Position numbers and translations under genes: made by a program. Source: Haloplanus salinarum (GTDB lineage Archaea > Halobacteriota > Halobacteria > Halobacteriales > Haloferacaceae). Taken from it: a DNA stretch of 64,000 nt. A model generated the notes under the pieces. That model was not told the DNA's origin and did not search any database. It worked only from the letters and a program-made list of their open reading frames with translations. Location: NCBI RefSeq assembly GCF_024498175.1, contig NZ_CP101823.1, positions 868,001 through 932,000 on the forward strand. The letters run 5' to 3'. Shown piece after piece: positions 12,008-30,188 of this stretch; position 1 is the stretch's first letter, and the number at the start of each line of letters is the position of its first letter.

Positions 12008-12418
12008 ATGATCAGGCTGGGACTGGTGGTGGCGGAGTTCAACGCGTCCGTCACCGAACCGATGGCGGACGCGGCCCGGGACGCGGCCGCGACGGCCGAC
12101 GGGGACGTGGAAGTGACGACGGAGCTGTCGGTACCGGGGAGTTACGACACGCCGCTCGCGGCCGACCGACTGGCGCGCCGCGACGACGTCGACGCCGTGG
12201 CCGTCGTCGGCGCCATCGTCACCGGCGACACGGACCACGACCGGGTGATCGGCGACGCGACGGCGCGGGCGCTGACCCGCGTGAGCCTCGACCGCGACAC
12301 CCCGGTCACGTTCGGCGTGTCCGGGCCGGGGATGAGCGGCGCCGAGGCCCGGGAGCGCGTCGAGAAGGGAGCGGAAGCGGTAAACGCAGCCGTCGAGATG
12401 GTACGCACGTTACCATGA
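12008..12418 (+). CDS. ribH: 6,7-dimethyl-8-ribityllumazine synthase
   Basis: 136-aa lumazine synthase, which condenses 5-amino-6-ribitylaminouracil with 3,4-dihydroxybutanone 4-phosphate in riboflavin synthesis. Diagnostic segments are VVAEFNASVTEPM, VPGSYDTPLAADRLARRDDVDAV and VVGAIVTGDTDHDRVI (the GxxxxGxTxHxxxI-like active site with the catalytic His). Archaeal-length. ATG 12008 lies about 27 bp from a GACTTTGCC box, consistent with a leaderless mRNA. Its TGA overlaps the ATG of the aminotransferase (ATGA at 12415-12418), so the two are co-translated. No other rib gene is in the window. Confidence 0.93.
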   Translation: MIRLGLVVAEFNASVTEPMADAARDAAATADGDVEVTTELSVPGSYDTPLAADRLARRDDVDAVAVVGAIVTGDTDHDRVIGDATARALTRVSLDRDTPVTFGVSGPGMSGAEARERVEKGAEAVNAAVEMVRTLP

Positions 12419-13611
12419 TCGACTTCGACTTCGCCTCGCGCGTCGACCGCGTCGAGCCGAGTGCGACGCTCGCAATCAGCAACCTCGCGAACGAACTCGA
12501 GGCCGACGGGATCGACGTCGTCGACCTCTCGGTGGGCGAACCCGACTTCGACACGCCGGAGAACATCAAACGGGCCGCCGAGGACTCCCTCGCCGCCGGC
12601 GATACGGGCTACACCTCCTCGAACGGTATCCCCGAACTCCGCGAGGCAATCGCGGAGAAACTGCGAGCCGACGGGATCGACTGCGCGGCCGACAACGTGG
12701 TCGTCACGCCGGGCGGCAAGCAGGCGCTCTACGAGATCTTCCACACCCTGATCGACGGGGCTGACGGGCGAAGCCCGTCCGCTAGCGGGACGTCGTCCCG
12801 CACTGGCGACGAGGTGGTCCTCCTCGACCCCGCGTGGGTGTCCTACGAGGCGCAGGCGAAGATGGCCGGCGCCGACCTCTCGCGGGTCGACCTCTCGCCG
12901 TACGACTTCCAACTCGAACCCGCGCTCGACGACCTCGCCGAAACCGTCTCCGACGACACCGAACTGCTGGTCGTCAACTCGCCGTCGAACCCCACGGGCG
13001 CCGTCTACTCCGACGCCGCCCTCGAAGGGGTCCGCGACCTCGCGGTCGATCACGACGTCACGGTCATCTCCGACGAGATGTACGACGAGATCACGTACGG
13101 GGTCGAACAGACCAGCCTCGGCTCGCTCGACGGCATGGGCGAGCACACCATCACCGTCAACGGCTTCTCGAAGGCCTACGCGATGACGGGCTGGCGGCTC
13201 GGCTACTTCTGTGCGCCCGAGTCGTTCGTCTCGCAGGCCGGCAAGATCCAGTCGCACTCGGTGTCGTGTGCCGTCAACTTCGTCCAGCACGCGGGGATCG
13301 AAGCCCTGCGGAACACCGACGAGGCCGTCGGCGAGATGCGCGAGGCCTTCCGCGAGCGCCGCGACATGCTCGCCGACCTCTTCGCCGACCACGGCGTCGA
13401 CGTCCCCGTCGGCGACGGCGCCTTCTACATGATGCTCCCCGTCAGTGACGACGATCAGGCGTGGTGTGAGGGCGCCATCGAGGACGCCCACGTCGCTACG
13501 GTGCCCGGGAGCGCCTTCGGGACGCCCGGCTACGCCCGCCTCTCCTACGCGGCGAGCACGGAGCGCCTCCGCGAGGGCGTCGAGCGGCTGGCCGACGGCG
13601 GCTACATCTGA
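12415..13611 (+). CDS. Class I/II PLP-dependent aminotransferase carrying a 16-residue palindromic insert
   Basis: 398-aa fold-type-I aminotransferase of the AspC/AlaT kind. Visible landmarks are DLSVGEPDFDTP, GYTSSNGIPELREAI, NSPSNPTGAVYS (binding Asn), DEMYDEITYG (Asp/Tyr), NGFSKAYAMTGWRLGY (PLP Lys) and YARLSYA (substrate Arg). Substrate is unresolved; aspartate, an aromatic acid or N-succinyl-diaminopimelate are all possible. Odd feature: residues 115-130 (GADGRSPSASGTSSRT) interrupt the normally tight turn between the FHTLID helix and GDEVVLLDPAW. They are encoded by two perfect hairpins at 12757-12804. The frame is kept, so the protein is probably functional. Operon with ribH. Confidence 0.92.
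   Translation: MIDFDFASRVDRVEPSATLAISNLANELEADGIDVVDLSVGEPDFDTPENIKRAAEDSLAAGDTGYTSSNGIPELREAIAEKLRADGIDCAADNVVVTPGGKQALYEIFHTLIDGADGRSPSASGTSSRTGDEVVLLDPAWVSYEAQAKMAGADLSRVDLSPYDFQLEPALDDLAETVSDDTELLVVNSPSNPTGAVYSDAALEGVRDLAVDHDVTVISDEMYDEITYGVEQTSLGSLDGMGEHTITVNGFSKAYAMTGWRLGYFCAPESFVSQAGKIQSHSVSCAVNFVQHAGIEALRNTDEAVGEMREAFRERRDMLADLFADHGVDVPVGDGAFYMMLPVSDDDQAWCEGAIEDAHVATVPGSAFGTPGYARLSYAASTERLREGVERLADGGYI
12757..12804 (+). repeat. In-frame double-hairpin element inside the aminotransferase gene
   Basis: 48 bp, 16 codons. Hairpin 1: GACGGGC (12763-12769), loop GAA (12770-12772), GCCCGTC (12773-12779). Hairpin 2: GCGGGAC (12785-12791), loop GTC (12792-12794), GTCCCGC (12795-12801). Both stems are perfect. 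The same architecture, with different stem sequences, occurs in dapD at 29991-30038. Confidence 0.8.
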
Positions 13612-28063: not shown

Positions 28064-29313
28064 CGCTCTACCTCCAGTGCGGTGACGTCGGCGATGGTCT
28101 CTCGCTCGCGGGCGAGTCGCGTTCCGTCCCCGTCCCGAACGACCTCCGCGGGTCGGGGCCGGGAGTTGTACGTGCTCGCCATCTCGTAGCCGTAGGCGCC
28201 GGCGTTGCCGACCGCGAGCAGGTCACCCCGCCGCGGTGAGGGCATCGATCGCCCCTCACAGAACAGGTCGGCCGTCTCGCAGACCGGGCCGGCGACGGTG
28301 ACCGGTCGCTCCGGCCGGTCGTCGGTCAGGTTCCGGATGGCGTGGTAGGCGTCGTACATCGCCGGCCGGAGGAGCGTCGTCATGCCGGCGTCGACGCCGG
28401 CGACGACGGGAACCGCCCCCGTCGCGCCCGCGTCGTCGACCGGCTTCACCGTGTTCACCCGCGTCAGGAGGACGCCGGCGTCGGCGACGACGTAGCGGCC
28501 GGGTTCGACGGCCAACTGGGCGTCGACCGCGCCGAGTGCCTCCCGTGTCGCGTCGGCGACGGCGGGGAGGTCGAGCGGCGGTTCGTCCTCGCGGTAGGGG
28601 ACGCCGAAGCCGCCGCCGACGTCGACGAACTCCAGGTCGCCCACCTCGCGGGCGAGTTCGCCCATCCGGGCGACGAGTTCGCGGTGGGCCGACAGGTCCT
28701 CGCCGGAGATGCCGCTGCCGGCGTGCGCGTGGATGCCCACCACGTCGAAGTCGGCGCGGGCGTCGGCCACCACCTCGGCCGCGCGGTCGTAGGGGACGCC
28801 GAACTTGGCGTGGCCGCCCGTAGTCACCTTCTCGTGGTGGCCGGCGCCGACGCCGGGGTTCACCCGGACCGCCAACCGACCGTCGAAGCCGCGTTCCCGG
28901 AGTCGGTCGAGGGTGTCCCGCGCGCCGGCGACGACGGTCAGGTCGGCCCCCGCCCGCCAGCGGTCGACGACGACGTCCAGGTCCGCGGCCGGCGGGTTGA
29001 CCGCGGTGTACTGGATGGCCTCGAACCCGGCGTCGAGGGCGCGGACCACCTCACCCGCGGAGGCACACTCGGCGCCGAGTCCCGCCTCGCGGACGGCGTC
29101 GAGGACGGCCCGGCCGGTGTGGGCCTTCACCGCGTAGCGCACGTCGGCGTCGGGGAAGGCCGCGCGCAGGCGGGCGGCGTTCTCCCCCACCCGGTCGCGG
29201 TCGGTGACGTACAGCGGCGTGTCGTACTCGGCGGCCAGGTCCCGCAGGTCGGCGGCCGACCAGTCGGCGAGTCGTCGCACGGCGGGGCCGGTGTCGGCCG
29301 CCTCCCCGCTCAT
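28060..29313 (-). CDS. lysA: Diaminopimelate decarboxylase
   Basis: 417-aa PLP enzyme of fold type III that makes L-lysine from meso-diaminopimelate, the last step of the pathway. Landmarks: PLP lysine in VRYAVKAHTGRAVL, GLGAECASAGEV, HAHAGSGISG, VDVGGGFGVPY, EPGRYVVADAG (substrate Arg), and the second-subunit cysteine motif GPVCETADLF followed by NAGAYGYEMASTYNSRPRPAEV. Length is normal. ATG 29313 overlaps the dapD stop by 4 bp. Confidence 0.96.
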   Translation of the reverse strand: MSGEAADTGPAVRRLADWSAADLRDLAAEYDTPLYVTDRDRVGENAARLRAAFPDADVRYAVKAHTGRAVLDAVREAGLGAECASAGEVVRALDAGFEAIQYTAVNPPAADLDVVVDRWRAGADLTVVAGARDTLDRLRERGFDGRLAVRVNPGVGAGHHEKVTTGGHAKFGVPYDRAAEVVADARADFDVVGIHAHAGSGISGEDLSAHRELVARMGELAREVGDLEFVDVGGGFGVPYREDEPPLDLPAVADATREALGAVDAQLAVEPGRYVVADAGVLLTRVNTVKPVDDAGATGAVPVVAGVDAGMTTLLRPAMYDAYHAIRNLTDDRPERPVTVAGPVCETADLFCEGRSMPSPRRGDLLAVGNAGAYGYEMASTYNSRPRPAEVVRDGDGTRLARERETIADVTALEVER

Positions 29314-30188
29314 TCCCGGAGCGCCTCCTCGCGCCGCGTGGCGTCCCGTGTCTCCGCCTCGATGTCCATCGCGACGACGGCGGGCTTGTACGCGCCGCCG
29401 GCGAAGAGGTCGTGGTCGCCGATGGAGGACTCGACCATCCGGGTGAACGCCCGGCGCTCCGGGGGTAGACGGCCGTAGATGACCTCCTCCTCGACGAGGT
29501 CGTAGACGGGGATGCGCGGCGAGAGCAGCGTGTTCTCGCCGACGACCGTGTTCTCGCCGACGACGAAGCCGCTCGTGACCCGACAGCCGGCGCCGAGCGA
29601 GACGCCGTCCTCGACGATCACCGGCGCGTCCTCGACCGGCTCCAGTACCCCGCCGATCAGCGTGTTCGCGCCGAGTTTGACGTTCTCGCCGATCTGGGCA
29701 CACGAGCCGACGGTGTCACAGGAGTCGACGAGCGTCCCGTCGCCGACGTGTGCGCCCACGTTGACGAAGGAGGGACTCATCATGATGCAGTCGCTCCCGA
29801 GGTAGGCACCGCGGCGGATCGTCGTCCCATCGGGCGTGTTACGGGTGCCGCGTTCGCCCAGGTCGCCCGTCTCGCGCAGGGGGAGGACGTCGTGGTAGTC
29901 GACGCCGCCGTAGGAGCGGGCCTCGGTGGCCCGCAGGCCGAAGTTGAGCAGGATGCCCCGTTTGACCCACTCGTTTACCTCCCACTCGCCGTTCCCGGCC
30001 GACGGCCGGGAGCCAGCCGAGGTTCCCTCGGCGCTGCCGCGCTTCTCGGCGGCGCGGACCTCGCCCGCCTCCAGTGCGTCGAGGAAGGCATCGAGCGTGT
30101 CGTAGTCGTCGGCGGTCGCCGTCCCGGCGTCCACGTCGTCGTCGTCGTAGCGCTGCCACAGGTCGGATACGTCGGCTTGCAGTGTCAT
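29310..30188 (-). CDS. dapD: Tetrahydrodipicolinate N-succinyltransferase with a 16-residue palindromic insert
   Basis: 292-aa enzyme that succinylates tetrahydrodipicolinate using succinyl-CoA. Residues ~115-235 form a left-handed beta-helix of hexapeptide repeats (RRGAYLGSDCIMMSPSFVN, VGAHVGDGTLVDS, VGSCAQIGENVKLG). DapD hallmarks are the EWVKRGILLNFGL segment and the acyl-CoA-binding loop. Odd feature: residues 51-66 (GSAEGTSAGSRPSAGN) sit between AAEKR and GEWEVNEWVKRG, where I remember relatives having a short loop. They are encoded by two perfect hairpins, the same kind of insert as in the aminotransferase at 12415. ATG 30188 overlaps the dapB stop. Confidence 0.95.
   Translation of the reverse strand: MTLQADVSDLWQRYDDDDVDAGTATADDYDTLDAFLDALEAGEVRAAEKRGSAEGTSAGSRPSAGNGEWEVNEWVKRGILLNFGLRATEARSYGGVDYHDVLPLRETGDLGERGTRNTPDGTTIRRGAYLGSDCIMMSPSFVNVGAHVGDGTLVDSCDTVGSCAQIGENVKLGANTLIGGVLEPVEDAPVIVEDGVSLGAGCRVTSGFVVGENTVVGENTLLSPRIPVYDLVEEEVIYGRLPPERRAFTRMVESSIGDHDLFAGGAYKPAVVAMDIEAETRDATRREEALRE
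29991..30038 (-). repeat. In-frame double-hairpin element inside dapD
   Basis: 48 bp, 16 codons on the coding (minus) strand. Hairpin 1: GCCGAGG, loop GAA, CCTCGGC (30016-30032). Hairpin 2: TCCCGGCC, loop GTC, GGCCGGGA (29993-30011). Loops fall at insert codons 5-6 and 12-13, exactly as in the element at 12757-12804, while the stem bases differ. Confidence 0.8.

Follow-up and report, generated by a model that had tools for sequence, protein, structure and literature searches.

We found that the dapD gene of a Haloplanus chromosome carries a 45-nt double-hairpin insert, which is probably one copy of a dispersed haloarchaeal family of mobile palindromic elements. We consider this explanation probable as a whole, and in everything except the step by which the units move we hold it with high confidence. 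Units occur at new places in single species, with a net gain of 45 nt and no target duplication, mostly just 3' of GAC or another RAY codon. They run on the strand of the gene and in its reading phase, free of stops; they form tandem stacks and are worn down by in-frame deletions.

The window, that is, the whole 64-kb stretch of DNA analysed, is part of a 3.45-Mb haloarchaeal chromosome of the genus Haloplanus. Its dapD product scored 267 bits against the NF008808 equivalog (cut-off 204), and the match to the PF14805 N-terminal domain, residues 3-85, encloses the insert (Table 1). On the coding strand the insert reads AGC GCCGAGG-GAA-CCTCGGC TGGCT CCCGGCC-GTC-GGCCGGG AAC, both hairpins being perfect (7-3-7 nt), and folded as DNA it gives z = -3.46, with 1 of 200 shuffles equally good. 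A sequence-only reading had placed a double hairpin here, and the place was confirmed; the insert is the top-scoring double hairpin of the window, the insert of a class I/II aminotransferase gene being next among distinct places. That reading had also taken the segment for an insertion, which the relatives bear out: 11 of 12 Haloplanus genomes gave a dapD match, with three full inserts (G000, G001 and G009), seven empty alleles and one 27-nt remnant (G006), which has lost hairpin 2 through a deletion between GG words. The extent it gave, residues 51-66 (29991-30038), was right in location and one codon too long, since the empty alleles show the first Gly codon (30036-30038) to be native and the net insert to be 45 nt (residues 52-66, 29991-30035). 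These alleles read KRGGEW, with both Gly codons already present, and the gain is 45 nt without duplication in dapD and the aminotransferase alike, so that the short target duplication around GG(C) suggested by the same reading is ruled out by the empty alleles of both genes. The codon preceding the dapD unit is GGC, not GAC.

Table 1. Positions in the window of the two host genes, their inserts and the parts of each insert.
Feature	Position	Strand	Evidence
dapD, tetrahydrodipicolinate N-succinyltransferase (292 aa), insert host	29310..30188	-	NF008808 equivalog; PF14805; solved DapD relatives
45-nt double-hairpin insert of dapD, codons 52-66, SAEGTSAGSRPSAGN	29991..30035	-	Net 45 nt against 7 empty Haloplanus alleles; R2 58.1 bits
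dapD insert, hairpin 1 (7-bp stem, loop GAA)	30016..30032	-	
dapD insert, linker (5 nt, TGGCT)	30011..30015	-	
dapD insert, hairpin 2 (7-bp stem, loop GTC)	29994..30010	-	
Class I/II aminotransferase (398 aa), host of the other copy in the window	12415..13611	+	PF00155, 207 bits
45-nt double-hairpin insert of the aminotransferase, ADGRSPSASGTSSRT, boundary uncertain by one codon	12760..12804	+	Net 45 nt against 10/10 other Haloplanus alleles; R2 47.2 bits
Aminotransferase insert, hairpin 1 (loop GAA)	12763..12779	+	
Aminotransferase insert, hairpin 2 (loop GTC)	12785..12801	+	

The aminotransferase insert, GCT GACGGGC-GAA-GCCCGTC CGCTA GCGGGAC-GTC-GTCCCGC ACT, has a layout identical to that of dapD, the stem bases that differ between the two changing in pairs, and it folds as DNA with z = -4.45 (0 of 200 shuffles equally good). 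The family covariance model (R2, below) matches both, in agreement with the earlier view that they belong to one family. This insert is found in G000 only, the site being empty in 10 of the 11 Haloplanus genomes with the gene, and has no duplicated target; the codon before it is GGG, or GAC with the boundary set one codon away, a placement permitted by the variability of the neighbouring codon. In G008 (L077) the insert site is empty, yet the aminotransferase match exceeds that of most relatives by 54 nt, the extra sequence lying elsewhere. A functional link between the two hosts, with the aminotransferase supplying the DapC step, is unsupported: the insert is present in 1 of 11 genomes, and the best-scoring model is the archaeal aspartate aminotransferase (386 bits, cut-off 550), while the LL-diaminopimelate aminotransferase model gave 214 bits, far below its cut-off of 593. 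The broader idea of a link through amino-acid enzymes is not supported either, as other hosts were read as MetRS, TrpRS, MutL, Trm5, quinone oxidoreductase, PEP synthase and aconitase.

The unit is made of two 7-3-7 hairpins joined by a 5-nt linker and flanked by 3 nt at each end. A first covariance model (R1), built from the two window copies, found more copies in the same genome and in the genus; its weak matches at L006-L011 were read as chance. The second model (R2) rests on 23 aligned copies without repeats of one place or array, and L049, L050 and L057 were left out of its alignment as imperfect. Nine of the 14 stem pairs changed on both sides among these copies, and the share of cells that pair is 99.7%, compared with 81.6% in shuffles, figures in which paired stems are favoured, the copies having been found with a structure model. 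R2 gave 47 matches at E<=1 and 40 at E<=0.011 in the window's genome (one place counted on both strands), and 10-60 matches in each of 12/12 Haloplanus genomes (E<=0.1; 150 candidates scored per genome). Among Halobacteria it matched 333 of 391 genomes, spread over 75 of 86 genera; 16 candidates were scored per genome there, and per-genome counts are thus floors. Across a sample of the phylum 43 of 294 genomes matched, all of the order of Haloplanus, with 10 others of the order lacking a match and 0 of 241 genomes outside it matching (order membership among the rows listed, sorted by kinship, with 231 further rows). Those 241 controls are archaea of other classes, probably lower in G+C, so a second control matters: one unit was searched by blastn against 72,556 plasmid records, of which seven matched, all of them haloarchaeal. 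A search of phages gave no match, and Rfam returned nothing at the gathering score for 8 loci.

That each insert arose independently by local slippage in low-complexity sequence might be read into the tandem 45-nt arrays of several proteins. Such units stand at exact 45-nt spacing at 320956/321001/321046 and 717287/717332/717377 of the window's genome, and five lie in tandem at one locus of G010. The same sequence and structure, however, recur in unrelated genes of different genera, some without any tandem copy and with empty relatives, and we regard slippage as extremely improbable. Many tandem units lie in proteins reading ..ENLFRN/SVEHGST.. (L181, L187, L188, L222, L224, L225, L230, L234, L248 and others, around 1411-1680), which we take to be the N-box of histidine kinases, and each unit there repeats the SVEHGS start; the unit family may derive from this motif or have become adapted to it. 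We also observed a second 45-nt type with different hairpins and a peptide near SEGSEIPREAGKAGD, in register with the first type inside arrays (L160:1456-1500, L216:1456-1500, L185:1570-1614, L230:1456-1500). Two 53-nt relatives with longer stems and common flanks (L242 and L243, 1501-1553) are apparently intergenic, and three near-identical copies with in-frame stops (L219, L220 and L221, 1501-1545) lie on the opposite strand just downstream of the end of an apparent TnpB-type gene.

Units are strongly tied to the reading frame of their hosts. Among 108 oriented copies (80 loci), counted as 122 matches minus 14 weaker overlapping opposite-strand matches and including orthologous copies across genomes, 99 lie on the gene strand in phase 0 and contain no stop, and 97 of these also pass a GC3-over-GC2 codon-bias test; the commonly encoded peptides are variants near SEERSSSGSRTQSGD. 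Two of the nine remaining copies are in phase 0 on the opposite strand by the codon-bias test, L163 with an apparently uracil-DNA-glycosylase-like host and L196, where the gene appears instead to be broken and on the strand of the unit; the remaining copies seem to be intergenic or are too short to judge. The four named plasmid copies examined, from the 7 records matched, all lie in annotated genes in phase 0, namely PEP synthase, phosphatase-family and hemolysin-family genes (preceding codon GAC) and aconitase (AAC). Were the 45 nt skipped in the RNA or by the ribosome, as in an intron-like element or in the bypassing of phage T4 gene 60 and the mitochondrial byps, strong hairpins and the Gly codons flanking the dapD insert on both sides would fit. 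But skipped DNA need keep neither an open phase, which 99 of 108 copies have, nor a length that is a multiple of three, and the flanking codons vary between sites, so that we give this reading very little credence.

Units also prefer a codon. GAC stands before the first unit in 42 of 72 cases against 9.8% of nearby codons (p = 3e-24), followed by AAC (12/72) and GAT or AAT (6/72), and GAC precedes the unit in the dapD copy of Halobiforma haloterrestris as well. The codon after the last unit is more varied, with GAC in 19, GGC in 18 and AGC in 11 of 72. The observation that both window inserts end before GGC-GAC or GGC-GAG therefore holds for these two and does not extend to the family, whose preference sits upstream of the insert (GAC) and not in the downstream GGC. 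The last codon of the unit itself is GAC in 79 of 99 copies and AAC in 3. A strict 3-nt GAC duplication was rejected, as upstream and terminal codons often differ (AAC upstream in 12/72, terminal in 3/99); terminal inverted repeats with target duplication, as in a MITE, are absent, and nine sites show a net 45 nt with two internal hairpins instead. GAC words of the window lie in phase 0 on the same strand in 31% of cases, in phase 0 on the opposite strand in 30% and between genes in 12%. The GAC preference thus explains part of the phasing, as well as the scarcity of intergenic copies. Target choice was rejected as the sole cause of the strand bias, and as GAC is about equally available on both strands, selection or another cause is needed.

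To locate Haloplanus alleles of other hosts, ten host stretches were used as queries and nine sites were aligned, a glpC-like site being left out. Against empty relatives a net gain of 45 nt was found in genes whose names were read from sequence as MetRS, Trm5, TrpRS, quinone oxidoreductase, FNR-like, MOSC and TrxR-like, and with dapD and the aminotransferase 9 of 11 sites gained net 45 nt; in MutL (likewise a name read from sequence) the gain is 39 nt instead of 45, and for Mre11, with its variable-length loop, there is no clean empty allele. That Mre11-like loop is an apparent insertion hotspot, and in G002 (L289) a further repeated insert, VDSEGSKTPRANGEA, occupies the loop where other species hold the unit. 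Decay is visible as a graded series at the MetRS site, from the full unit to remnants of a few codons (L249, L255, L256, L265 and L268), and as one degenerate copy each of MOSC and quinone oxidoreductase in other genomes. Such remnants could also be expected of ancient inserts passed on vertically and lost over and over, an explanation to which the dapD site lends something, being filled in Haloplanus, Halobiforma haloterrestris and archaeon QS_9_68_17 and partly in Natrialba asiatica. Several sites, however, are filled in a single Haloplanus genome, out of 12 for Trm5 and TrpRS, 11 for the aminotransferase and 9 fetched for TrxR-like, and exact empty alleles occur in others; vertical inheritance, which would need many exact losses, seems to us improbable. 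At dapD itself, a tree of 98 proteins with the loop omitted mostly follows taxonomy, and its 7 insert-bearing rows need 7 changes, as many as the supported branches force. The site must therefore have been repeatedly filled, emptied or exchanged, and loss, regain or short-tract exchange must be common there; for the Halobiforma copy, whose right flank differs little from the window's, short-tract exchange is the favoured interpretation.

How the units move is the least secure part of the explanation. We tentatively suggest, at somewhat less than even confidence, that a trans-acting enzyme recognises the folded single strand and joins the unit 3' of GAC, a step that could be likened to the action of IS200/IS605 transposases at their own targets. 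Since the unit itself mostly ends in GAC, each insertion would offer a new target for the next, and arrays would follow. No mover was found. Y1 (IS200/IS605) transposons are not supported as direct parents: 9 of 12 Haloplanus genomes have Y1 transposases, whereas G004 (99% complete) and G011 (99%) lack them despite their 38 and 10 unit copies, the number of transposases correlates weakly with unit copy number (rho 0.52, p 0.08, n=12), and the ends read for four Haloplanus Y1 families are TCAA, TTTAC or unclear, not GAC. An R2 match under E 0.01 was found at one of 30 Y1 loci, about 850 nt from the transposase gene.

Copying without a transposase, by template switching or microhomology recombination helped by stalled hairpins and anchored on short words (GAC, GGCGAC), with filled alleles also crossing species by short-tract gene conversion, is possible but in our judgement less likely than recognition of the folded strand. 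It would account for copies in Y1-free genomes, for the patchy dapD insert, with its seven changes on a mostly taxonomic tree and the flank that Halobiforma shares with the window, and for the repeated words at some junctions: quinone oxidoreductase has GCCGGCGAC both before the unit and at the unit end, MOSC has GTCGGAGA at the unit start and directly after the unit, and the 39-nt gain of MutL leaves the terminal GGCGAC of the element replacing the GGCGAC of the host, although slippage between two GGCGAC words after an insertion could also explain the MutL case. On the other hand, 9 of 11 sites gained net 45 nt though their flanks share little beyond three bases, and such exact ends suggest end recognition. 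Building on recognition of the folded strand, a more speculative and rather doubtful extension is a self-framing mobile element, which would join 3' of GAC, a favoured acidic codon, and so often land in phase and at acidic loops, add a 15-residue Ser/Gly/Glu-rich linker, invite more units through its GAC end, and move by an undescribed single-strand hairpin mechanism.

For the host protein, the simplest effect of the dapD insert would be a neutral, disordered, hydrophilic loop. A weak structure model of DapD (mean pLDDT 65) places insert residues 53-63, with pLDDT below 50, between two short strands, and the 15 residues are probably translated and tolerated as a disordered surface loop. The common unit is stop-free in other phases, where it encodes mostly basic or hydrophobic stretches, and because of these, insertions in other phases or strands would be removed by selection. 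GAC being the common Asp codon here, the preference for it would already favour the codon phase.

The units are a concrete source of short indels in haloarchaeal proteins, in which birth, stacking and decay are visible together, and they can be tested in culturable archaea. Among their hosts are putative genes of aminoacyl-tRNA synthetases, mismatch repair and core metabolism. The gene tree requires seven changes for the dapD insert, and caution is advised before such loops are taken for lineage-specific functional domains or phylogenetic indel markers. If true, the self-framing element would keep supplying essential proteins with new disordered loops, class-wide.

We found no earlier description of these elements in haloarchaea in the open-access literature searched. 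Fungal mitochondrial double-hairpin elements and sponge mitochondrial hairpin elements also have two hairpins as a unit, are dispersed and change their stems; they are organellar and, to our knowledge, have no fixed codon phase or length. REP/BIME elements are short hairpins mobilised in trans by RAYT transposases and are extragenic by name, unlike the haloarchaeal copies, of which 99 of 108 are codon-phased. In-frame mobile palindromes are known mainly from Rickettsia, and the haloarchaeal kind is far shorter, has exactly 15 codons and is present in most haloarchaeal genomes tested. As far as the part of the source consulted describes them, the Rickettsia palindromic elements are palindromic repeats of about 150 bp, in ten families of one bacterial genus, which sit in-frame in unrelated protein genes and are translated as added peptides (PMC10969869). 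The haloarchaeal units share the in-frame position in unrelated protein genes (PMC10969869) and differ from that description in having 45 bp, two separate hairpins, a GAC preference, tandem arrays and a Halobacteria-wide distribution. The PATEs of Haloquadratum walsbyi, in the sections consulted, are transposase-free, have palindromes near their ends that match the IS605-type ends of the host, and make no target duplication; in-frame coding insertion is not among the features described there (PMC3119063). With these the units share a haloarchaeal host, near-terminal palindromes and the lack of target duplication (PMC3119063), whereas their palindromes match no IS605-type end compared (4 Haloplanus Y1 families). 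The haloarchaeal units are in-frame mobile palindromes, and we file them as members of neither the Rickettsia palindromic element nor the PATE families.
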